From Candidatus Poribacteria bacterium (lineage in GTDB: Bacteria; Poribacteria; WGA-4E; PCPOR2b), in contig JAJECO010000042.1 of NCBI GenBank assembly GCA_022822005.1, forward strand, positions 1 through 64,000: a stretch of 64,000 nucleotides of DNA, written 5' to 3'. The translations under genes were made by a program, and so were the position numbers. Below the pieces are notes generated by a model. The model worked only from the letters and a program-made list of their open reading frames with translations. It searched no databases and was not told where the DNA came from. Positions 9,186 to 60,053 of the stretch are shown piece after piece; the first letter of the stretch is position 1, and every line of letters starts with the position of its first letter.

Positions 9186-11027
9186 CTACTTGACAATCAC
9201 CATCCGCCTTGTAGCGGTATAATCCCCCGCCCGAAGCTGATAAAAATAGATACCACTTGCCACCAATTCGCCGGTTCCGTTGCGTCCATTCCAGTACGCT
9301 GCACGATTCCGAGCGGTATAGAATCCTGCCGGTTGATACCCCAGATCTAATTGACGCACCATCGCTCCTTTTATGTCATAAATGGTAAGTATCACATCAG
9401 AAGCGTTGGCGAGATGATACGGTATCCACGTCTCTGGATTGAACGGATTCGGATAGTTGGGCAATAGTCCTGTCTCTTTTGGTATCAAAGCAGCGAGGAG
9501 CTGCTCAAGAAAGCGAATTCCCCTTCGCAACCTTAGATTCATAAGATCTAATCCCTGTACTTGAGTGAGCCAACCCCGAACTTCCGCTTCCGTAAGGGAC
9601 CCAAGTGTCACGGGGTGTGCAGGAGGGGCCGCCGCAGCCTCCCCAAGCACCCCGGCAACTGTGACGAGATCCAGAATATTGACTACGCCATCTCCATTGA
9701 TATCGGCATCGTTCTGTCCTATCAAACCAAAGTTTGAACTAACATGTGTCAAATCGTGGAAGTTCACCACACCATCGCGGTTGACATCTCCGAATACCGC
9801 TGTGGGTGTAAGATCCCACAGGAGCACCGTGCCATCCCCACTCCCGGTCGCCAGCATCCGTCCATCCGGGCTGAACGCGACGCTATTGATCCAATCTGTG
9901 TGCCCGATGAAGGTTTGCTTGTACCTTCTCGTCACCCCATCCCAAAGATATACCGCACCATTTTCCTCCCCACTTGCCAGGATCTCCCCATTTGGACTGA
10001 ATGCTACACTCCTCACCCCAGACGTATACCCGGTGATTGCCCCCTTCTGTTCACCCGTTGTGACAGCCCACAACCGAATGGTCCCGTCATTACTCTCACT
10101 TACTAGTGTCTCCCCAGCCGGACTGAAGATAACATTTTCGACCAAACCCAGTTGTCCGATTGTCAACCTGTTTTCACCCGTCACAGCATTCCACACCCGC
10201 ACTGTCCCACCCCAACTCCCACTTGCCAGCGTCTCCCCATTCGGGCTGAATGCTACGCTAGTGACCCTGTCCGTATGTCCGGTGAGAGTTCGTTTGCGTT
10301 CACCTGTCGCGGTCTCCCATAGAAGGATGGTCTTGTCCCCACTCACACTCGCCAACATCTCGCCGTCCGGGCTGAATGCGATACTCCAAATCACAATTGG
10401 ATGCCCGTCTGTCCACTTTTGTTCACCCGTGGCAACATCCCACACTCGCAACATACCGGTCGAATGTCCACATGCCAGTGTTTCTCCATCTGGGCTAAAC
10501 GCAACGCTCTGTACCCGGGATCTGGAATCGGTGAAACTCCATTTTTCTTCACCTGTGGCGACATCCCACAAACGGACGGTCTGATCACCGCTTCCACTCG
10601 CCAGCGTGTGTCCATCCGGACTGAACGCCACACTACCGACAGTCCAACTATGACCAGTGAGGGTTCGCTTGTGTTTACCTGTGGCGACATCCCATAGGCG
10701 GATGGTGTTGTCCTGCCAACCGGCACCGCTAGCGAGCGTCCCTCCATCTGGACTATACGCGATGCTAGTGACCCAAGAGGTATGCCCGGTGAATAGGTCA
10801 ATCTCTTGGAGTGTCGCCGTATCGTAGAACCAAATCCCGATAGAGCTAGCCACCGCGAGGCGAGTTCCGTCCGGAGAATACCGCATCTCAACTATGCTTC
10901 CCCTACCGAGGCGCGCCTTGACATTCTCGGGTAAACGCCATTGCGGGGAATCTTGGGCAAAGCTGTCCTGTAGAAATAGAACAGAAAAGAACAACAAGCT
11001 AAACGTGAAAAACAGTTCCTTTTTCAT
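9186..11027 (-). CDS. Secreted WD40 beta-propeller protein with type I dockerin and C-terminal FlgD-like/sorting domain
   Basis: A 613-residue exported protein. Residues 1-24 are a signal peptide. Residues about 40-405 contain eight or nine WD40 repeats, each with the SPDG/SPNG turn and a LWD-type end. Residues about 410-465 hold two dockerin-type calcium loops (GDVNRDGVVNFHDL and ADINGDGVVNILDL). From about residue 525 there is a C-terminal sandwich with NYPNPFNPETWIPYHLA, IYDIKGAMVR, AYWNGRNGTGELVASG and TATRRMVIVK, which resembles FlgD-Ig/T9SS-type sorting tails and is common in Poribacteria secreted proteins. AAGGAG precedes the start. It ends 65 bp from the convergent cohesin-like gene. 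Likely a surface scaffold or receptor; no enzymatic domain is present. Confidence 0.88.
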   Translation of the reverse strand: MKKELFFTFSLLFFSVLFLQDSFAQDSPQWRLPENVKARLGRGSIVEMRYSPDGTRLAVASSIGIWFYDTATLQEIDLFTGHTSWVTSIAYSPDGGTLASGAGWQDNTIRLWDVATGKHKRTLTGHSWTVGSVAFSPDGHTLASGSGDQTVRLWDVATGEEKWSFTDSRSRVQSVAFSPDGETLACGHSTGMLRVWDVATGEQKWTDGHPIVIWSIAFSPDGEMLASVSGDKTILLWETATGERKRTLTGHTDRVTSVAFSPNGETLASGSWGGTVRVWNAVTGENRLTIGQLGLVENVIFSPAGETLVSESNDGTIRLWAVTTGEQKGAITGYTSGVRSVAFSPNGEILASGEENGAVYLWDGVTRRYKQTFIGHTDWINSVAFSPDGRMLATGSGDGTVLLWDLTPTAVFGDVNRDGVVNFHDLTHVSSNFGLIGQNDADINGDGVVNILDLVTVAGVLGEAAAAPPAHPVTLGSLTEAEVRGWLTQVQGLDLMNLRLRRGIRFLEQLLAALIPKETGLLPNYPNPFNPETWIPYHLANASDVILTIYDIKGAMVRQLDLGYQPAGFYTARNRAAYWNGRNGTGELVASGIYFYQLRAGDYTATRRMVIVK

Positions 11028-11085: not shown

Positions 11086-12039
11086 TTATTGAGAGACCCG
11101 CTTGAGCCATCCCCACATCATAGGTTTCTTGCCTGCGGGAGCAACGGCAAGAGGAGGACGAAACCACGCAGGAGAGACGTCCTGCTCGAAAAACTTTCCA
11201 GTGAGGTTTTGAGGATTATTCCCGTTGGTGTTTATCACGTAGATATCATTGTTCCCATCCCTATTAGACGTAAAGGCAATGTGTTCACCATCAGGGGACC
11301 ACGAGGGATTCCAGTCAGAACTAGCGTTTTTGGTCAGCCTTCGAGGATTATTCCCATCGGCATCCATCACATAAATATCGAAGTTCGCACCCCTCTCAGA
11401 CGCGAAAGCAATATGCTCACCGTCAGGCGACCATGAGGGATTCCAGTCATCACCGGGGTTTCTGGTGAGCCTTCGAGAATTCCCGCCATCGGTGTCCATC
11501 ACGTAAACTTCAGCGTTCCCATCCCTAGCAGACACGAAGGCAATGCGTTCTCCATCAGGGGACCATGCGGGAGAATTGTCAATCTTGGTATTTGTGAGTT
11601 TTCGAGGATTCCCGCCATCGGCGTCCATTACGTAGATGTCTGTTTCCCACCAGAAGGCACCCCTACTGGAGGAAAAGGTAATGTGTTTACCGTCAGGGGA
11701 CCATGAAGGATGGTTGTCAATCAAGCGATTGTTTGTGAGTTTTTGAAAATTCCCGCCATCGGCATTTATCACATAGATGTCGATATCCCACCCGCTTTCA
11801 CCTTTCTCAGACGAGAAGACAATGCGCTTACCGTCGGGAGACCAAGAGGGGTCCCAGTCAATCGTGGGATTGTCTGTGAGTCTTTGGGGATTCTTTCCAT
11901 CGGTGTCCATCACGTAAATTTCAAAGTTCCCCTCCCTATTAGATGCAAAGGCAATTTGTGCTTGTGCATCAACACCCATCATCAGCAGCGTCAGACCCAA
12001 AGCGAAAATGAAATATGCGAGGTTATGTTTCCGTTGCAT
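11086..12039 (-). CDS. Exported TolB-like WD40-type beta-propeller protein
   Basis: A 317-residue protein with an N-terminal signal peptide (about residues 1-27) and six consecutive PD40/TolB-type repeats, each with a NP(Q/R)(R/K)LT turn, a WSPDG(K/E)(R/H)I motif and a SxR...(D/E)IYVMD strand. These form a six-bladed propeller related to the C-terminal half of TolB. The N-terminal TolB domain is missing, so it is not TolB itself. AGGAGG lies nine bases upstream of the start. It is 58 bp upstream of the WD40-dockerin gene on the same strand, so the two may be cotranscribed. Likely periplasmic or surface located and involved in protein or glycan binding; partner unknown. Confidence 0.85.
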   Translation of the reverse strand: MQRKHNLAYFIFALGLTLLMMGVDAQAQIAFASNREGNFEIYVMDTDGKNPQRLTDNPTIDWDPSWSPDGKRIVFSSEKGESGWDIDIYVINADGGNFQKLTNNRLIDNHPSWSPDGKHITFSSSRGAFWWETDIYVMDADGGNPRKLTNTKIDNSPAWSPDGERIAFVSARDGNAEVYVMDTDGGNSRRLTRNPGDDWNPSWSPDGEHIAFASERGANFDIYVMDADGNNPRRLTKNASSDWNPSWSPDGEHIAFTSNRDGNNDIYVINTNGNNPQNLTGKFFEQDVSPAWFRPPLAVAPAGKKPMMWGWLKRVSQ

Positions 12040-51413: not shown

Positions 51414-52226
51414 TTAGCGACCTGCTTTAATATTACCCCAGGTGGTGGTTAATTTTGATGTGGGATCGACCAACAGGAGTAGATCCTTGGCATCCAATTC
51501 AACCTCCTTTTTGGTTAGAGCGCGGTCATAAAGTTTGAACTCATCCATAACAAAAAAGGCAGCTCGGCTCGTCGTTCCACCAATACGAAGGTGCCCCCTA
51601 CCCTGAACGAAACCGCGCTGAACGTTAAAGTTACCTTTTGCTTTGCCATTAATATATATCGTCAAGTTCGCGGACTTTTTGACACCCGCAATATGATACC
51701 ATTTTTTTTGATCAAAACCGCCTCCTTCGCCTTCGGGATCTATTGCATCGGGACCAATCCTACCAAATTTATACACAAGGGATAGACCGGGGTCGGTGAG
51801 AGAAATGCCCGGGGAATCCCCTTTCTCATCACCAACTAAGATGTTAGCCTTTTTCAAAACACTGTTGGGAGGACGAGGAGGCGGGGCAATCAAGGGCTCA
51901 AGGATATAGAACCAAAAAATATAGGTGTGATCGGCATACTTATCCATTCTGTCAAAGGAGTCAACGCGAAATTGTGCACTGATATTGTTGAAAATTTTTA
52001 ACGCTCCCGTTCCTTTGTAAACCTCCGCGGGTTCATTGGTGATTTTGGCACCAAACCGAAGTTTACCATTGTTACCCCCGCCTGTCATGTCTTCAACCTT
52101 TCTTCCGTCGAGCTGCTCTTCAAACGTGAAATACAGGATCAAATTTGGATCTAGAGCCGCCGAAGCAGAAGGAATCGTCATGACCAGAAACGTGATGACG
52201 AAACTTACCATAATAAGCGTTCTCAT
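51414..52226 (-). CDS. Exported LamG protein, array member 1
   Basis: 270 residues with a signal peptide (about residues 1-23, cleaved near SAA). The whole mature part is one LamG/concanavalin-like domain, opening DPNLILYFTFEEQLDGR and ending with FFVMDEFKLYDRALTKKEVEL. Its C-terminal tail, LLVDPTSKLTTTWGNIKAGR, is shared with the five neighbours. The start at 52226 has GGAAAG upstream; a TTG at 52232 is an alternative. LamG domains bind sugar polymers, lipids or proteins. It is separated from the next paralogue by a REP-like hairpin at 52314-52345. This copy carries a Pro-rich insert (APPPRPPNS) in the central loop. Confidence 0.85.
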   Translation of the reverse strand: MRTLIMVSFVITFLVMTIPSASAALDPNLILYFTFEEQLDGRKVEDMTGGGNNGKLRFGAKITNEPAEVYKGTGALKIFNNISAQFRVDSFDRMDKYADHTYIFWFYILEPLIAPPPRPPNSVLKKANILVGDEKGDSPGISLTDPGLSLVYKFGRIGPDAIDPEGEGGGFDQKKWYHIAGVKKSANLTIYINGKAKGNFNVQRGFVQGRGHLRIGGTTSRAAFFVMDEFKLYDRALTKKEVELDAKDLLLLVDPTSKLTTTWGNIKAGR

Positions 52227-52313
52227 TTTCAATTCTTTCCTTGATATTGAACTTTAGTTAATAAACCCACCGGCTACCTACTAAAGTCAGACTATCCCGC
52301 TCCTCAAATAAGA

Positions 52314-52345
52314 TAGCCCCGATGGATAAAAGTCCATCGGGGCTA
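52314..52345. repeat. REP-like hairpin A in the LamG array
   Basis: Perfect 13-bp arms TAGCCCCGATGGA and TCCATCGGGGCTA around a six-base loop, between LamG members 1 and 2. Related hairpins at 54114-54148 and 55157-55188 share the core TAGCCC...GGGCTA. Confidence 0.7.
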
Positions 52346-52389
52346 AAGTCGGACGCATCCAGCCTGACATATTATCAGAAGTCTATCGG

Positions 52390-53205
52390 TTAACGTCCCG
52401 TTTTGAGACGCCCCCAAGTGACCGTCAATTTGTGATGTGGCTCAACCGACAGGAATACACCTTGTTCCATCAACTCCACCTCTTTTGCGGTTAGAACCCG
52501 ATCGAAAAGCGCGAACTCATCCATCGCGAAATAGGCAGCTCGGGTCCGCGTACCGCCGATACGGAGCCGACCTTCACCCTGAGGGAATTTTTTTGGTACG
52601 TCAAATCTCCCTTCCTCCTCGCCATTGATGTAAATAATCAGGTCTGCCCCCTTTTTGACGCCCGCGATATGATACCATCTCTCCAGCTCAAACTCTGACC
52701 CTTCACCGTCTGGACCAAGTCCATCAATTCCGCCCCCTTCTCCAACCTCATACCAGAGGGCGAAACTGTTTCCGCTAATCTGGACGGAGGGCGATTTTGA
52801 AAAGCCTGCGTTGAGCACTTGCGCTTCATCAGCGTTTTTCTTGAAGATCGATCGCGCCTCACCTTGATGAAATCCCTCGAAGAAATAGATCCAAAAGGCG
52901 ACGGTGTGATCTTGATACCCACTCATACGGTCAAAGGGTTCGACGCGGAATTGCTGGCTGATGTTCCCCGAAATTTTTAAAGCACCGGCACCTTTGTAAA
53001 CCTCCGCGGGTTCGTTGGTGAGTGTGGCCCCCAGTCTAAGCTTACCGTCGTTACCCCCGCCGGTCATGTCTTCGACCTTTCTTCCGTCAAGCTGCTCTTC
53101 AAACGTAAAATACAGAATCAAATTTGGATCTAGAGCCGCCGGGGCAGAGAGAGTCATCATAACGACGAACATGCTGATGCAACTTACTGCAATAAGCGTT
53201 CTCAT
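52390..53205 (-). CDS. Exported LamG protein, array member 2
   Basis: 271 residues with signal peptide (about residues 1-22). Opening DPNLILYFTFEEQLDGR and the C-terminal VEPHHKLTVTWGRLKTGR match the other members; the middle (AFWIYFFEGFHQGEARS) differs. The tail after the LamG fold is LFDRVLTAKEVELMEQG. The start at 53205 is firm: AGGAGG precedes ATG, and the previous gene's stop TAA lies immediately before that AGGAGG, so the two genes are translated from one transcript with 14 bp between them. Confidence 0.87.
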   Translation of the reverse strand: MRTLIAVSCISMFVVMMTLSAPAALDPNLILYFTFEEQLDGRKVEDMTGGGNDGKLRLGATLTNEPAEVYKGAGALKISGNISQQFRVEPFDRMSGYQDHTVAFWIYFFEGFHQGEARSIFKKNADEAQVLNAGFSKSPSVQISGNSFALWYEVGEGGGIDGLGPDGEGSEFELERWYHIAGVKKGADLIIYINGEEEGRFDVPKKFPQGEGRLRIGGTRTRAAYFAMDEFALFDRVLTAKEVELMEQGVFLSVEPHHKLTVTWGRLKTGR

Positions 53206-53219
53206 TTTCAATTCCTCCT

Positions 53220-54017
53220 TTAACGACCAGTTCTGATATGGCTCCAAGTGGTTATCAATTTGTCTTGTGGCTCGACCGACAAGAATATCCCTTTAAAAAC
53301 CGCCGTCACTTCTTTTTCGGTTAAAGGGCGATCATAAAGCTGAAACTCGTCCATCGCAAAGGAGGCAGCTCGGCTCGTCGTTCCGCCGATACGAAGTTGC
53401 CCCTTACCTTGGATAAAGTCTCGTCTGACCTTAAAGTTGCCTTTTTCTTCGCCGTTGATGTAGACGATAAGGTCGCTTGCCTTTTTGACGCCCACGATGT
53501 GATACCACGTCTCCAGGTCAAAACCTTTACCCTTGCCGTCGGGTCCAACTGCATTAGCTCCTTGGTCGCCAAATTTATATTCAAGCGCTAAACCGGGGTG
53601 GGTCAGAAAGATGCCTGGTGCGCTCCCTTTTTCCTCGCCAACTAAAATGTTGGCTTTTTTCAAAATACTTGATCGGGCACCCATGGGGTTGAATATATAG
53701 ATCCAGAAGGCGTAGGTGTTATCTCCATACTTATCCATTCGGTCAAACTCTTCCACGCGGAGTTGTGCACTGACGTTGTTGAAGAGCTTTAGAGCGCCTA
53801 CCCCCTTGTGGACCTCGGCGGGTTCGTTGGTGATTTTGGCACCAAACCGCAGCTTACCGTCGTTACCCCCGCCGGTGAGGTCTTCGACCTTTCTTCCATC
53901 GAGCTGCTCTTCAAATGTGAAGTACAGAATCAAATTTGGATCTAGAGCCGCTTGGGCAGAAAAAATCGTCATGACCAGAAACATGGTAATGAAACTTACC
54001 GCAATAAGCGTTCTCAT
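53220..54017 (-). CDS. Exported LamG protein, array member 3
   Basis: 265 residues with signal peptide. The LamG body has the common TGGGNDGKLRFGAKITNEPAE segment and the WIYIFNPMG centre. C-terminus VEPQDKLITTWSHIRTGR. AAAGGAGG precedes the start at 54017; TTG at 54023 is an alternative. It is the gene immediately upstream of member 2 (14 bp). The insert between the common blocks is the shortest of the array. Confidence 0.87.
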   Translation of the reverse strand: MRTLIAVSFITMFLVMTIFSAQAALDPNLILYFTFEEQLDGRKVEDLTGGGNDGKLRFGAKITNEPAEVHKGVGALKLFNNVSAQLRVEEFDRMDKYGDNTYAFWIYIFNPMGARSSILKKANILVGEEKGSAPGIFLTHPGLALEYKFGDQGANAVGPDGKGKGFDLETWYHIVGVKKASDLIVYINGEEKGNFKVRRDFIQGKGQLRIGGTTSRAASFAMDEFQLYDRPLTEKEVTAVFKGIFLSVEPQDKLITTWSHIRTGR

Positions 54018-54113
54018 TTTCAATTCCTCCTTTGATGTTGGACTTTAGTCAATTAAACACCGAAGATCTACTGTAGGCCTACCAAAGTCAAGGTTATTCT
54101 CATCCTCAAATGA

Positions 54114-54148
54114 TATAGCCCCGACGGCTAAAATCCGTCGGGGCTATA
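54114..54148. repeat. REP-like hairpin B in the LamG array
   Basis: Perfect 14-bp arms TATAGCCCCGACGG and CCGTCGGGGCTATA around a seven-base loop, between LamG members 3 and 4. Confidence 0.75.
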
Positions 54149-54197
54149 GAGTGTCTCTTGCTTAATATGCTATCAGAATCTATCAGGGTTCTGTCGA

Positions 54198-55016
54198 TTA
54201 ACGTCCCGCTTTGAGACTGCCCCAGGTAGTAGTCAATTGTGTCTCAGGTTCGACCGACAGGAATAGACCCTTCGCATCCGCCTCCACCTCTTTTGCAGTT
54301 AAGGCGCGGTTATACAGCCCAAATTCATCCATAGCAAAAGAGGCAGCTCGAATTCGCGCTCCGCCGATACGAAGATGCCCCTTACCTTGGATGAAATCGC
54401 GTTTGACATTATATCTGGCTATTTCTTCACCGTCAATGTAGATTATCAGATCTGATGGCTTTTTGACCCCCGCGATGTGATACCATTTGTTTAGTTCAAA
54501 CTTTTTACCCTTGCCGCCGGGACCAACCCCGTCACCCGGTACAGCCCCTTGGTCGCCAAATTTATATGTCAGTGTTAGCCCCGGATCGGTCAAAAAAATG
54601 GCTGGCGAGTTCCCTTTCACATCACCAACTAAAAGGTGGGCTTTTTGCAGAATAATTTCCTCCGGACAACACGGATCATTTCTGACACCGTAGATGTAGA
54701 GCCAAAAAGTGTAGGTGTTCTCTTTATAGTTATCCATCTCCTTAAAGGACTCGACCAGAAACTGAGCACTGATATTGTTAAAAATTTTTAACGCTCCCGT
54801 GCCCTTGTATATCTCTGCAGGGTCATTTGTGATTTTGGCACCCAACTTGAGTTTTCCATTGTTACCGCCGCCGGTGAGGTCTTCGACCATTTTTCCATCG
54901 AGCTGCTCATCAAATGCAAAATACAAAATCATGTTCGGATCGATAGCCGCCGAGGCAAAGAAAACTGTAATGAACAGAAGCATGGTGACGAAACTTAATG
55001 TAATAAGTGTTCTCAT
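54198..55016 (-). CDS. Exported LamG protein, array member 4
   Basis: 272 residues with signal peptide (about residues 1-23). The common body is present, but the central loop carries GVRNDPCCPEEIILQKAH, with two adjacent Cys that members 1-3 lack and member 5 shares. C-terminal VEPETQLTTTWGSLKAGR. AAGGAGAAATTGAA precedes the ATG at 55016. Members 4 and 5 are therefore the closest pair in the array. Confidence 0.87.
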   Translation of the reverse strand: MRTLITLSFVTMLLFITVFFASAAIDPNMILYFAFDEQLDGKMVEDLTGGGNNGKLKLGAKITNDPAEIYKGTGALKIFNNISAQFLVESFKEMDNYKENTYTFWLYIYGVRNDPCCPEEIILQKAHLLVGDVKGNSPAIFLTDPGLTLTYKFGDQGAVPGDGVGPGGKGKKFELNKWYHIAGVKKPSDLIIYIDGEEIARYNVKRDFIQGKGHLRIGGARIRAASFAMDEFGLYNRALTAKEVEADAKGLFLSVEPETQLTTTWGSLKAGR

Positions 55017-55156
55017 TTCAATTTCTCCTTTTATACCGATTCAGGTTGAGTGATAAGCTAACTGTTATAACATTTTCTGCTCCCCGATAAATCGGAGGAA
55101 TTCCCAAAATCTGCATAGTGGTTGAAATGGCTTAAACCTTGCTGTTCAAAATGATA

Positions 55157-55188
55157 TAGCCCTGATGGACAAAAATCCTTCAGGGCTA
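55157..55188. repeat. REP-like hairpin C in the LamG array
   Basis: Arms TAGCCCTGATGGA and TCCTTCAGGGCTA pair with one mismatch around a six-base loop, between LamG members 4 and 5. Confidence 0.65.
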
Positions 55189-55232
55189 AAATAGGATGGG
55201 TTTCACGTAACTTGCGATCAAAGTTTTGTTGG

Positions 55233-56051
55233 TTAACGACCTGTCTTGAGATAGCCCCAAGTGGTAGTCAATTTTGTTTCAGGTTCAACCGACAGGAATA
55301 CACCTTTGGCATCCAATGCCACCTCTTTTTCGGTTAAGGCACGGTTATAAAGCCCAAACTCATCCATCGCAAAAGAGGCTGCCCGCTGCCGAGTTCCGCC
55401 GATGCGAAGGTGCCCTTTACCCTGAACAAAATCGCGTTGGACCTTATACCTCGCTTCCTCTTTGCCATCAATGTAGATTATCAGGCTGGTTGCCTGTTTG
55501 ACTCCCGCGATGTGATACCATTTTTTTAGTTCAAATTGTAGACCCTTGCCGCCGGGACCGACAGGATCCCCCTCTATCGCCCCTTGGTCTGTAAATTTAT
55601 ATACCAGAGATAGACCTGGATCGGTGAGAAAGACACCCGGTGCGCTCCCCTTGTCAGCAGCGTCTAAAACGTTGGCTTTTTTGAAGATGCTTTCCACTGC
55701 ACAACACGGATCATTTCTGACACCGTATATGTAAATCCAGAAGGTGTAGGTGTTGTCTTTATAAGTCTCCATTTCCTTGAAAGACTCAACGAGCACCTGA
55801 GCACTGATGTTGTTGAAGATTTTTAGCGCTCCCGCTCCTTTGTACACCTCTTCAGGTTCGTTTGTGATCTTGGCACCTAATTTGAGTTTCCCATCGTTAC
55901 CACCACCGGTGAGGTCTTCGACCTTCCTCCCATCCAGCTGCTCATCAAACGAGAAATACAATAGCATCTCCGGATCTATAGCCGCCGGGGCAGAATAAAC
56001 CGTTACGGCAACAAAGGTAATAAGGAAGCTGAACCAAATAAAGGCTTTCAC
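55233..56051 (-). CDS. Exported LamG protein, array member 5
   Basis: 272 residues. GTG start at 56051 with AAAGGAGG upstream, followed by a signal peptide. The central loop has GVRNDPCCAVESIFKK, as in member 4. The C-terminal VEPETKLTTTWGYLKTGR is the clearest consensus of the shared tail. No hairpin separates it from member 6; the two genes are 85 bp apart. Confidence 0.87.
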   Translation of the reverse strand: MKAFIWFSFLITFVAVTVYSAPAAIDPEMLLYFSFDEQLDGRKVEDLTGGGNDGKLKLGAKITNEPEEVYKGAGALKIFNNISAQVLVESFKEMETYKDNTYTFWIYIYGVRNDPCCAVESIFKKANVLDAADKGSAPGVFLTDPGLSLVYKFTDQGAIEGDPVGPGGKGLQFELKKWYHIAGVKQATSLIIYIDGKEEARYKVQRDFVQGKGHLRIGGTRQRAASFAMDEFGLYNRALTEKEVALDAKGVFLSVEPETKLTTTWGYLKTGR

Positions 56052-56136
56052 TTTTAATTCCTCCTTTTATTCCGGTTTAGGTTTAGTAGCACTCAATTTA
56101 AGCGATTTATTGTAGTGTTATCAGAAGTTCCGTCGG

Positions 56137-57003
56137 TTAATGGCTAATTTTAATATCGCCCCAGGTGGTTGTCACTCTCCTTTCAGGTTCAACCGATAGA
56201 AGTATGCCCTTGGCGTCCAACGCTACTTCATCGTCAGTTAAGGGACGATCGTAAAGAGAAAACTCATCCATAATGAAATTGGCAGAGCGTTCCCGTGTGC
56301 CACCAAGACGCAGTAACGCCTCACCCTGAACGAAATCTCTTGGGACATCGTATCTGCCTTGCTTCTTGCCGTTGATGTAGATTATTAACTCGTTTGCCTT
56401 TTTGACACCCGCGACGTGATACCACTTCTTGAACTCAAACACGGTGCCGTTGCCACCGGGACCGACTATGCCCTTGGCGCCTATAGCCCCTTGGACCCCG
56501 CCACCTCCTTTATCTTCAAATTGATAGATAAGGGCTAATGGTTCCTCCTGAAGCAAGATCCCCGGTGCCCAACCTTTCACATTGCCCTCTAGAACTCTCC
56601 CCTTTTCCAGAATGCTTGCTCTACCTTCCCCACAGGTCCCACCACAATGTTCCCAATTCCAAGGCTTAGCGGTGTTACCTAAGATATAGAACCAGAAGGT
56701 GTAGGTGTTATCTTTATACTCATTCATTCTCTTAAAGGGCTCGACACGGACCTGAGCACTGATGTTAGTGAATTTAACCGCGCCTGTTCCCTTGTATACT
56801 TCCTCGGGTTCGTTTGTGATCTTGGCACCTAATTTGAGTTTCCCATTGTTACCGCCGCCGGTCAGGTCTTCTATCTGCTTCCCATCGAGCTGCTCGTCAA
56901 ACGAGAACCATAGAAGCATATTCGGATCTATGGCCGCCGGTGTAGAGAGGATCATTATAAACAGTAACGTGGTGATGAAGCTCGCCCCAATAAACGTTCT
57001 CAT
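56137..57003 (-). CDS. Exported LamG protein, array member 6
   Basis: 288 residues, the longest of the array and the first transcribed. The start at 57003 has GGAAGGG upstream, and a promoter lies at 57070-57099. The LamG body includes a longer central insert, WNWEHCGGTCGEGRASILE, with two Cys, and a Gly-rich loop GGGGVQGAIGAKG. The C-terminal tail VEPERRVTTTWGDIKISH has lost the GR end. Probably an extracellular binding protein like its neighbours; the ligand is unknown. Confidence 0.85.
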   Translation of the reverse strand: MRTFIGASFITTLLFIMILSTPAAIDPNMLLWFSFDEQLDGKQIEDLTGGGNNGKLKLGAKITNEPEEVYKGTGAVKFTNISAQVRVEPFKRMNEYKDNTYTFWFYILGNTAKPWNWEHCGGTCGEGRASILEKGRVLEGNVKGWAPGILLQEEPLALIYQFEDKGGGGVQGAIGAKGIVGPGGNGTVFEFKKWYHVAGVKKANELIIYINGKKQGRYDVPRDFVQGEALLRLGGTRERSANFIMDEFSLYDRPLTDDEVALDAKGILLSVEPERRVTTTWGDIKISH

Positions 57004-57069
57004 TCTCAACCCTTCCTTTCCAAAATCCGACAATCTGCGACAATTGAAACACCTAAAAAAATTAAAATC

Positions 57070-57099
57070 ATCGTATCACATCCATTAAATATATGTCAA
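57070..57099 (-). promoter_or_regulatory. Sigma70-type promoter at the head of the LamG array
   Basis: On the reverse strand TTGACA (complement of 57094-57099), an 18-base spacer and TACGAT (complement of 57070-57075). It is divergent from the promoter at 57120-57148. Confidence 0.6.
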
Positions 57100-57119
57100 G
57101 AGAAAATAGAATTTTTAGT

Positions 57120-57148
57120 TTGACATTATTTTTCGCTAGTATTATAAT
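57120..57148 (+). promoter_or_regulatory. Perfect sigma70 promoter of the divergent LamG gene
   Basis: TTGACA (57120-57125), a 17-base spacer and TATAAT (57143-57148). The predicted leader is about 125 nt before the start codon at 57280. Confidence 0.8.
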
Positions 57149-57279
57149 AGCCTCTTAATGCAACAATCTGCAGAGATTTGCAATGAAATGGGCAGATTCG
57201 CAAGCGGATCGCCATTCGGATGGACAATGTGTCGGCCGATACAAATTTCTGTAATAACTACAAACAGGAGGATATTCAA

Positions 57280-58080
57280 ATGCAAAGGTTGAAGAGATTT
57301 CCAATGAGCACCCTGGTCGCTATCTTTTTGATAGGCCTGTTGCCATCCTTAGGATATAGCCAGATTCAATTGGATGACCCGCTCCTCGTATTCTACTTTC
57401 CTCTCAATGAAGGCAAGGGGGATATAATAAAAGACCTCGGTCCCAATGGACTGGAGGGAGAAACTGAAGGTGCCCCAGCATGGGTAGATTCCGTAGATCC
57501 AAAATTTGGAACCTGCCTTTCATTTATAGACGGAAAAGAACAGTCGGCATTTGTAGCAGATGTGCCAGCTTTGGATCTCGGCGAATCTGATACCACCCTC
57601 GCTGCTTGGGTTAAGACTGGCAAAGAGGTGGGCCAGGGATTTGTTTATATCAAATGGGATGGCGGTGGCTGGTATATCAAGCTAAAAGATAAGTTGCTCT
57701 TCACCCGCTATCACATACCCGCACCCGTCGGCTTTGGTGGTGAGATCGGTAGTAAAACTGAGATTGCCGATGACGTATGGCATCATGTCGCCTCCATGCG
57801 GACAAACAAAGAGACAGTTTCACTCTTCATTGATGGCAAACTAGACCATAAAGATGACGCGGGTTCAGCCCCTGGTTCCGCTAATACCCCTGCCAATTTG
57901 GAAATTGGTCGGTTTAAGGAAGAGCGTTTCTGGGATGGGGAGTTCGATGAACTTTTCCTGATGAAGCGAAATTTGACAAACGCCGAACTTCAACTGTTGA
58001 TGGAAGGACAGTTTTTAGCAGTTGAATCAAAGGGGAAACTTCCCCTCACTTGGGGGAGTCTCAAAGCTTCCAGGAATTGA
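57280..58080 (+). CDS. Exported LamG protein, divergent member
   Basis: 266 residues with signal peptide (about residues 1-27). The LamG body begins LLVFYFPLNEGKGDIIKDLG and contains TLAAWVKTG, VWHHVASMR and LFIDGKLDH, ordinary LamG strands. The C-terminal tail VESKGKLPLTWGSLKASRN resembles the tail of the six-gene array, although the body is more distant. GGAGGA at 57267-57272 fixes the start. It is read from the consensus promoter on the opposite side of the array promoter. The parvulin-like gene follows 182 bp downstream on the same strand. Confidence 0.85.
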   Translation: MQRLKRFPMSTLVAIFLIGLLPSLGYSQIQLDDPLLVFYFPLNEGKGDIIKDLGPNGLEGETEGAPAWVDSVDPKFGTCLSFIDGKEQSAFVADVPALDLGESDTTLAAWVKTGKEVGQGFVYIKWDGGGWYIKLKDKLLFTRYHIPAPVGFGGEIGSKTEIADDVWHHVASMRTNKETVSLFIDGKLDHKDDAGSAPGSANTPANLEIGRFKEERFWDGEFDELFLMKRNLTNAELQLLMEGQFLAVESKGKLPLTWGSLKASRN

Positions 58081-58262
58081 TGAGGCACCATTAGGAAGTT
58101 TGCCATTGTCCAAATTTTGTACTTAAGAAAATATGCAAATAATAGGAAAATGGGCTGAATTTGGGGCGCGTTTTCACAACAAGTTGCGGTGAGGGACCTG
58201 CCGAATTTATTCGTGCGAGTTTCTCGCCGCAATTTTTTATCTGTCAGGGGAGAAATCTGCGG

Positions 58263-60053
58263 ATGAAAAAGACGTTGATTATGTTGACGGGGCTTGTAGC
58301 AATCAACATAGTAAGCTGGCAAATGGCTTGGTCGCAGCAAACAAAATCTGTTACCGAATCTGCCGATGAAAGTCAGATTATCTTGGCTGAATATCAGTGG
58401 AACGGCAGAAAATTCGAGATTTCACTTGCGGATTTCAAGGCGGCGATTGGAGAGTTGTCATTCTTTCAGCAGGAGAACTACGCAAGTAAAGCCGGGAAAA
58501 CAGAATACCTGCCAGAGTTTATTGATAGAAAACTGAAAGTCCTCGCAGCGATAGATAAGGGTTTAGATCAAGATGAAGATATACTCAAAAAGGCGCAGGA
58601 ATACAAACATACACTCTTAATCGAACGCCTGACCCTGATCGAAGTTGATGAAAAAGTCTCTCCCACAGAGGAAGATCGGCGGCAGTATTACGAGGAACAC
58701 AAATCAGAATACGTGGAAGAGGCAGCAGCACGAGTAACCTGCATTAGTGTCTTGGAAAAAGCGCTTGCGCAGGAGACACTGGCACAAATCAAAGCCGGAG
58801 TAGACATCAACGAACTGGCAAAAGAGCTGTCGGAAAAAGAAAAATTGTTTGGTCCCGGGAGCAACAAGCTGGATCCGGGGAACACCGGGCTCTTCACCAA
58901 GGACGAATCCGAGGACTGGCAGGTTTTTGTTGATACCGCCTTTGATATGGAAGTCGGTGAAATCACGGAAGAAATCCTTGAACTTGAGATGGATCACGAA
59001 ATATACTACCTCATTTTCCGCAAGGAGGAGCATATACCGGAGCGTATAGCGGATTTTAAGGAGGTCAGAGACTATATTGAACCCTCTGTTAAGCGTGAAA
59101 AAAAACGGCAGCGAATCATTGAATGGGTGGCAGAAGTTACTTCAGCAAGTGAACTGAAAACCTACCCAGAACGGATTCCTGAAACAGTGCTCGACCAAGA
59201 GGAACCGGTGACAAACACGGAAAATATTGTCATTGCAGAGTTTGATTGCGACGGAAAGCAGCGGATTACACTCGCTGAAATGATACAGGACATTCGCGAA
59301 CTCTCGGAGTATACACCGGAACGTTATAAAGATAAAGCGCGCCTTGAAGAATACGTTACCCTGATGGCTGAAGGTCGCTTAATACTCTGTCTCGCCAAAG
59401 CGCGTAGACTTGAAGAAGAACAAGAAATCCAGAAAAAAAGTCGCAGGTATCTCCACACGCTGCTAGCCGACAGATTGTGGAAGATCGAAGTTGAGCAGAA
59501 ACTCGAGGCGACAGAGGAAGACATACAAGCCAACTATGAAGCGCGTAAAAGCGAGTTTGCCGAAGAGGAACAGGTGCGGCTAACCTGTATCACGCTTAGG
59601 GATAGTGACCGCGCGAAAGCGGTTTTTGAGTCAATTCAGTCGGGCAAAGATATGGTTGAAGTGGCAAAGGAGTTGTCAGATACCGGCGAATTGACCGGTC
59701 CCGGGGCGGATCCTCTCAACCCCGGCGATACCGGTTACTTGACCCGTGACACCTTTCCGAAAGAGCAGCAAGCTTTTACTGATGCGGCCTTTGCGATGGA
59801 AGTAGGACAGACCGTTGATGGTATCATGACTGTCAGCTTTCAAGGCAGACAATACTATACAATATTCCGGAAAGAAGAACATAACTCAGCGCGCCAAAAA
59901 ACACTTGACGACTCGGAGGTCCAGCGAATCGTGACGGCGGACACCCAAACGGAAATGCGCGATGCGCTTACTGCCAAGCTACACACTCAACTTCGTAATA
60001 AAGCAAAAGTCAGAATATACTTCGACCGAATTCCAGAGGGGTCAGATAAGTGA
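58263..60053 (+). CDS. Exported tandem parvulin-like (SurA/PrsA-type) chaperone
   Basis: 596 residues with signal peptide (about residues 1-24). It consists of two similar modules of about 270 residues, each with an N-terminal helical SurA-like part (KAGKTEYLPEFIDRKLK; KARLEEYVTLMAEGRLI), a parvulin-like part (GVDINELAKELSEKEKLFGPGS; GKDMVEVAKELSDTGELTGPGA), and the end YYLIFRKEEH or YYTIFRKEEH. The usual RHIL histidine of active parvulins is replaced (RVTCI, RLTCI), so isomerase activity is doubtful and chaperone function is more likely. Periplasmic. It follows a LamG gene and lies beside the LamG array, so it may help those exported proteins fold. The start has a modest GGGGAG upstream. Confidence 0.8.
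   Translation: MKKTLIMLTGLVAINIVSWQMAWSQQTKSVTESADESQIILAEYQWNGRKFEISLADFKAAIGELSFFQQENYASKAGKTEYLPEFIDRKLKVLAAIDKGLDQDEDILKKAQEYKHTLLIERLTLIEVDEKVSPTEEDRRQYYEEHKSEYVEEAAARVTCISVLEKALAQETLAQIKAGVDINELAKELSEKEKLFGPGSNKLDPGNTGLFTKDESEDWQVFVDTAFDMEVGEITEEILELEMDHEIYYLIFRKEEHIPERIADFKEVRDYIEPSVKREKKRQRIIEWVAEVTSASELKTYPERIPETVLDQEEPVTNTENIVIAEFDCDGKQRITLAEMIQDIRELSEYTPERYKDKARLEEYVTLMAEGRLILCLAKARRLEEEQEIQKKSRRYLHTLLADRLWKIEVEQKLEATEEDIQANYEARKSEFAEEEQVRLTCITLRDSDRAKAVFESIQSGKDMVEVAKELSDTGELTGPGADPLNPGDTGYLTRDTFPKEQQAFTDAAFAMEVGQTVDGIMTVSFQGRQYYTIFRKEEHNSARQKTLDDSEVQRIVTADTQTEMRDALTAKLHTQLRNKAKVRIYFDRIPEGSDK

Follow-up and report, generated by a model that had tools for sequence, protein, structure and literature searches.

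A tandem LamG array in Poribacteria and the short C-terminal tail it shares with exported proteins of many folds

Introduction

Six LamG paralogues stand side by side in a stretch of Poribacteria DNA, next to a seventh, divergent LamG gene. What are these proteins for, and what unites them besides their fold? A sequence-only reading of the locus proposed a surface recognition repertoire, built by repeated duplication, with a binding loop that is still diversifying. Here, we weigh this proposal against comparisons within the genome, across the phylum and with known sorting signals. The window (the whole stretch analysed, 64,000 nucleotides) is contig C79 of a 97-contig, 6.0-Mb genome; the closest named records that carry the same array are the Poribacteria MAG records OY282444.1 and JAJDUM010000060.1.

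Results

Open reading frames, Pfam matches and sequence identities confirm the array as first described: six minus-strand LamG paralogues (m1 to m6) and one divergent plus-strand LamG gene (d7), all with signal peptides (Table 1). Laminin_G_3 (PF13385), the domain of ConA-like lectin proteins, forms the body of all seven and is matched by each at 51-63 bits (curated Pfam cut-off, 27.6). Pairwise identity is 52-73% within m1-m6 and 23-27% to d7. Because seven of the 25 LamG matches in the 6.0-Mb genome sit in one 7-kb stretch, their clustering is not due to chance. ConA-like lectin domains of solved structures matched the array proteins weakly in sequence (best E 5.8e-6), and the AlphaFold model of an array LamG protein, built on a shallow alignment, has a mean pLDDT of 47.5. 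Compared with other Laminin_G_3 proteins, those of the array add paralogue-specific loops and a Poribacteria-specific tail, and their ligand is a presumed one. Together they make up a set of exported LamG proteins (concanavalin A-like, of presumed jelly-roll fold) particular to the lineage, probably binders of glycans or matrix, with loops fixed per paralogue.

The central loops, too, are of the types first reported, that is PPPRPP in m1, a short loop in m2 and m3, NDPCC in m4 and m5, and HCGGTCG in m6. The start context said to be common to the members is exact in m2 and m3 only, the others carrying the variants AAGGAAAGAATTGAAAATG, AAGGAGAAATTGAAATG, AAGGAGGAATTAAAAGTG and AAGGAAGGGTTGAGAATG. 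Gene m3 lies upstream of m2 across a gap of only 14 bp. The open reading frame of d7 is listed from 57220, and 57280 is its most likely start.

Table 1. Features of the window, with positions counted from its first letter
Feature	Position	Strand	Basis or remark
WD40 protein with a C-terminal T9SS type A sorting domain (TIGR04183)	9186..11027	-	adjoins the TWG-tailed PD40 gene
Exported PD40 beta-propeller with the same TWG tail (LAVAPAGKKPMMWGWLKRVSQ)	11086..12039	-	tail outside fold in model
m1, LamG paralogue, Pro-rich loop (PPPRPP)	51414..52226	-	ORF, Laminin_G_3, signal peptide, TWG tail
m1 TWG tail (LLVDPTSKLTTTWGNIKAGR)	51417..51476	-	profile A1, 39.5 bits
Terminator-like hairpin 3' of m2	52314..52345	-	scan and sequence
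m2, LamG paralogue, short loop, extra NADE insertion	52390..53205	-	ORF, Laminin_G_3, signal peptide, TWG tail
m2 TWG tail	52393..52452	-	profile A1, 45.3 bits
m3, LamG paralogue, shortest loop, tail variant TTWSHIR	53220..54017	-	ORF, Laminin_G_3, signal peptide, TWG tail
m3 TWG tail, degenerate	53223..53282	-	profile A1, 25 bits
Related hairpin 3' of m4	near 54116-54150
m4, LamG paralogue, NDPCC loop	54198..55016	-	ORF, Laminin_G_3, signal peptide, TWG tail
m4 TWG tail	54201..54260	-	profile A1, 43 bits
m4 central loop 1, residues 110-120 (GVRNDPCCPEE region)	54657..54689	-
Related hairpin 3' of m5	near 55150-55190
m5, LamG paralogue, NDPCC loop, GTG start	55233..56051	-	ORF, Laminin_G_3, signal peptide, TWG tail
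m5 TWG tail	55236..55295	-	profile A1, 45.1 bits
m6, LamG paralogue, HCGGTCG loop	56137..57003	-	ORF, Laminin_G_3, signal peptide, TWG tail
m6 TWG tail	56140..56199	-	profile A1, 27.1 bits
Promoter-like divergent pair, whole element	57070..57148	.	consensus scan only
Promoter-like TTGACA-18-TACGAT towards m6	57099-57070	-	consensus scan only
Promoter-like TTGACA-17-TATAAT towards d7	57120-57148	+	consensus scan only
d7, divergent LamG gene, same tail as m1-m6	57280..58080	+	Laminin_G_3, signal peptide; syntenic in L105, L106
d7 TWG tail (LAVESKGKLPLTWGSLKASRN)	58015..58077	+	profile A1, 39.2 bits

Comparison with two relatives (a-series, genes of G021/L106; b-series, genes of G022/L105) resolves the array into the orthologue groups m1=a7, m2=a6, m3=a5, m4=a3=b3, m5=a2=b2 and m6=a1=b1, and a seventh, a4=b4, which both relatives have and which is missing here. 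The conserved flanks hold an MFS transporter at one end and d7, PPIase and PhyH-like genes at the opposite end. Repeated tandem duplication, with one central loop diverging between paralogues, is supported. A recognition repertoire would also account for the strong loop 1 differences among paralogues, where dN is saturated, and for the differing array size in relatives (6 here, 7 in G021/L106, 4 in G022/L105 and 0, judged at E<=1e-40, in three more genomes of the genus). However, each orthologue group keeps its loop between species: loops that differ among paralogues are near-identical among orthologues, without hypervariation. With six orthologue pairs pooled, omega between this genome and G021 is 0.046 for loop 1, 0.133 for loop 2 and 0.061 for the body, the loop counts being small (for loop 1, one nonsynonymous change over 71 codons); against G022, the values are 0.155, 0.208 and 0.080. 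Of the two signs by which the sequence-only reading could be judged, variable array size is thus present, and fast-evolving loops are not. By these rates, loop divergence is old and under purifying selection, as in specialised rather than hypervariable paralogues, and we regard an ongoing diversifying repertoire as very improbable.

Upon examination of the C-termini, we found that the tail which the sequence-only reading had listed as common to the members, and whose significance it missed, extends well beyond the array. The pattern [FL][SA]V.P.gKL.TtWG.[IL]K is C-terminal in all seven array proteins, including d7 at only 23-27% identity. A single tail used as query matched 44 places in the genome, and profile A1, built from 38 tails, gave 126 matches at E<=1. 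Inspected in frame one by one, 123 of these end 0-11 residues before a stop codon, an end position with a chance expectation of about 4% per match; in the other three, exactly 95 residues separate the match from the C-terminus, and a T9SS type A sorting domain follows immediately. Each of the 114 complete tail genes encodes a hydrophobic, signal-like stretch at the N-terminus, called by a hydrophobicity heuristic and not by a trained predictor. With the ends excluded, the bodies of 117 tail genes sort into 15 groups that share no BLAST similarity with one another, among them Laminin_G_3, Kelch, PD40, 3-keto-disaccharide-hydrolase-like, CBM9 and DUF3108-like domains. Most of these bodies are beta-rich binding domains. 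As a tandem array, the LamG locus is ordinary in this genome, where such arrays are the rule for tail proteins (97 of 123 tail-bearing genes stand in tandem runs, some of them of Kelch or PD40 propellers, not LamG).

Four residues of the tail are near-invariant in this genome: V (119/122), K (118/122), W (117/122) and G (109/122). The tail lacks hydrophobic character (in the last 32 residues, the best 15-mer has a median hydropathy of 0.44), and hydropathy of the same 32 residues revealed no transmembrane helix near the C-terminus of the tail proteins. In models of two folds, LamG and PD40, both of low confidence, the tail is a coil outside the domain. In one comparison, the tail changed more quickly than the body (omega 0.33 for the tail, 0.06 for the body), and the raised dS that accompanies this high omega is suggestive of tail exchange between paralogues.

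The tail profile matches 85 of 85 Poribacteria genomes, with 16 to more than 40 matches per genome at E<=1e-5 among the matches listed, and none of the 109 genomes outside Poribacteria that were included in the relatives search. At 20 of 20 places sampled in 19 other Poribacteria genomes, the tail forms the C-terminus of a protein with a signal peptide; these places were high-scoring matches, so that with regard to the W the sample is not free of bias. By computation, the tag exists, sits at the C-terminus, spans many protein types and, among the genomes compared, is restricted to the phylum. Neither Pfam nor NCBIfam holds a family model for it, and the literature search found no description of a Poribacteria C-terminal tag or of LamG arrays. 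Given the literature and families searched, such a phylum-specific tag looks new.

Among its closest counterparts is the T9SS type A sorting domain (CTD; TIGR04183/PF18962). Like the TWG tail, the CTD is found at the C-terminus of many exported proteins whose folds are unrelated, with about 70 TIGR04183 matches above cut-off in this genome. The CTD is an Ig-like domain of 70-90 residues, whereas the TWG tail has about 20 and ends at the stop codon. The CTD models match neither m4 nor d7, and no such Pfam match occurs in any of the seven array proteins. The CTD model does not match the tail. A TWG-like motif lies directly upstream of the CTD in a subset of TIGR04183 proteins (for example SVEPQSKRFTTLGDIKRTSLMQNFPNPFNPETWI and LAVESKGKLLTSFGYVKQTRLLQNYPNPFNPETWI), and a fused query recovered this junction-CTD architecture throughout the phylum. 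Tandem PD40 paralogues show both architectures, the terminal tail and the tail motif followed by a CTD. At the position of the W, 10 of the 17 distinct junctions have F, the other 7 have L and none has W, in contrast to the terminal tails here (W in 117/122). Many junctions contain KRT-A or KRT-S about where terminal tails stop, and because of this coincidence we infer that the terminal tail resembles a processed C-terminus; PorU in Porphyromonas prefers to cleave between T/E/D/N and G/A/S (PMC10202324). A recent truncation of the CTD was considered and rejected, as no relic lies downstream; the single match found belongs to a gene that runs convergently on the other strand.

Machinery that could act on such signals is encoded in the phylum. 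In this genome, a PorU sortase with a full Peptidase_C25 domain scores 428 bits against NF033707 (cut-off 420), a second PorU-like protein falls just below at 414.5 bits, and a PorV-family gene lies just downstream of porU. The PorV family is above cut-off in 81 of 81 genomes, at about 16 copies each. A SprA-like protein of 2170 aa matches TIGR04189 at 148 bits (E 1.5e-43), below the cut-off of 200, and its sequence does not significantly match that of a solved SprA; 82 of 83 genomes contain a SprA-like match. The GldM/PorM search returned no match in 59 genomes and none in its controls, that is, it had no positive control. In the parts of Kamke et al. (2014; PMC3909097) drawn on here, TIGR04183 domains are described in Poribacteria, on the same WD40-type cargo, and the Por secretion structural genes are reported absent. 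By contrast, we found PorU, PorV-family and SprA-like genes, and the short tail goes unmentioned in those parts. Where literature naming both Poribacteria and type IX secretion was consulted, it discusses T9SS for Bacteroidota only.

Discussion

We propose that the array proteins carry a Poribacteria-specific C-terminal sorting tag of about 20 residues, read by an envelope component that is most likely a branch of a divergent T9SS, and we put the probability of this reading at roughly 0.55. Both elements are inferred, the T9SS as reader less firmly than the tail as sorting signal. Tail proteins, which have a Sec-type signal peptide, would first be exported by Sec. A dedicated envelope component would then read the TWG tail, and the protein would be placed or anchored at the outer membrane or cell surface. 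The predicted reader comprises a SprA-like translocon, a PorU sortase and expanded PorV-like shuttles. By analogy, the expanded PorV set is a plausible reader of the tail, since different shuttles in Flavobacterium read different CTD types (PMC12618676).

Short conserved C-terminal tags on dozens of exported, otherwise unrelated proteins are familiar from PEP-CTERM, LPXTG and similar systems. Those tags combine a hydrophobic transmembrane segment with a basic end; the TWG tail, in contrast, has no hydrophobic transmembrane segment, and no cognate sortase is assigned to it. Known T9SS cargo requires the full Ig-like CTD, and its absence from the TWG-tail proteins speaks against a T9SS as reader. 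Also weighing against the proposal are the sub-threshold SprA match, the search for GldM that returned nothing, the higher omega of the tail in one comparison and the low overall confidence of the two structure models. The lack of a CTD would suit a tag that works independently of T9SS, for example in outer-membrane retention on the periplasmic face, in SurA/PPIase-like quality control or in assembly of an extracellular matrix, as would the parvulin-type PPIase gene that is a conserved neighbour of d7 and the beta-rich binding domains that make up most of the bodies. We consider such a tag unlikely, as the sequence link between tail and junction, and through it to T9SS, would need a separate explanation.

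That link could instead be a scar, if ancestors built of body, junction and CTD had repeatedly lost the CTD and left the junction as a non-functional remnant. The likeness of the tail to the pre-CTD junction and the two architectures among tandem PD40 paralogues are what such losses would leave behind. However, none of the 123 tail genes has a CTD relic downstream on the coding strand, the motif is conserved phylum-wide on 15 body types, and drift would not yield the switch between W in the terminal form and F or L in the junction; we therefore hold a scar to be quite improbable. Starting from the sorting tag that we favour, a more specific version can be offered tentatively. The divergent T9SS may serve two cargo classes, classical CTD proteins and a larger CTD-less class in which the 20-residue TWG tail would by itself direct export or anchoring and be recognised by one of the approximately 16 PorV-like shuttles. 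The TWG form would then be a minimal signal either derived from the pre-CTD junction or ancestral to it.

Poribacteria are a major uncultured lineage of sponge symbionts, and a tag on dozens to more than 100 exported proteins per genome would define much of their secretome. The finding bears on an open question stated in the parts of PMC3909097 drawn on here, that of T9SS-type sorting domains in Poribacteria whose machinery was reported missing. The tail offers a simple sequence handle by which the proteins displayed to the sponge host can be predicted and tested.

Possible tail exchange and further tail-bearing genes

Between m1 of the window array and its orthologue a7 in a relative's array (L106), dS was 0.75 in the TWG tail and 0.16 in the body, and between m4 and its L106 orthologue a3 it was 0.58 and 0.15, respectively. 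Because tail dS far exceeds body dS in both orthologue pairs, these comparisons suggest gene conversion that swaps TWG tails among paralogues. The exported peptidyl-prolyl isomerase (PPIase) neighbour of the divergent gene d7 is kept in L106 and in a second relative's locus, L105.

Elsewhere in the host genome, G000, the largest TWG-tail run is a tandem series of ~20 genes, with PD40 propellers nearly throughout. A second LamG array combines seven LamG genes with one unrelated exported protein that has no Pfam match; all eight proteins carry the tail. Two very short tail-ended frames are possibly gene remnants.

Coordinates of features in the window and G000
Feature	Location
m1 tail	window 51417-51476
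m4 tail	window 54201-54260
Exported protein, two parvulin-type PPIase (Rotamase_2) domains, adjoining d7	window 58260-60053
PD40 run	L114/L115 (C41, 15.6-39.6 kb)
LamG array	L026:6361-13892 (C22)
Short tail-ended frames	L121 (C49:9462-9509); L131 (C77:60424-60480)
T9SS component loci	L224:1723-8975 (C93); L225:1538-7876 (C1); L196:3870-10382 (C44)
PorV-family genes (examples)	C44:71386-72366; C93:142864-143709; C76:47225-48271

T9SS components

G000 encodes a PorU scoring above the curated cut-off, which adjoins a PorV-family gene, together with a second PorU-like protein and a divergent SprA-like protein. Judged by these matches, Poribacteria appear to encode type IX secretion system (T9SS) components, which runs counter to a 2014 study that reported finding none in the phylum (PMC3909097). 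The PorV family is expanded phylum-wide to ~16 copies per genome, and its genes occupy 16 places in G000.
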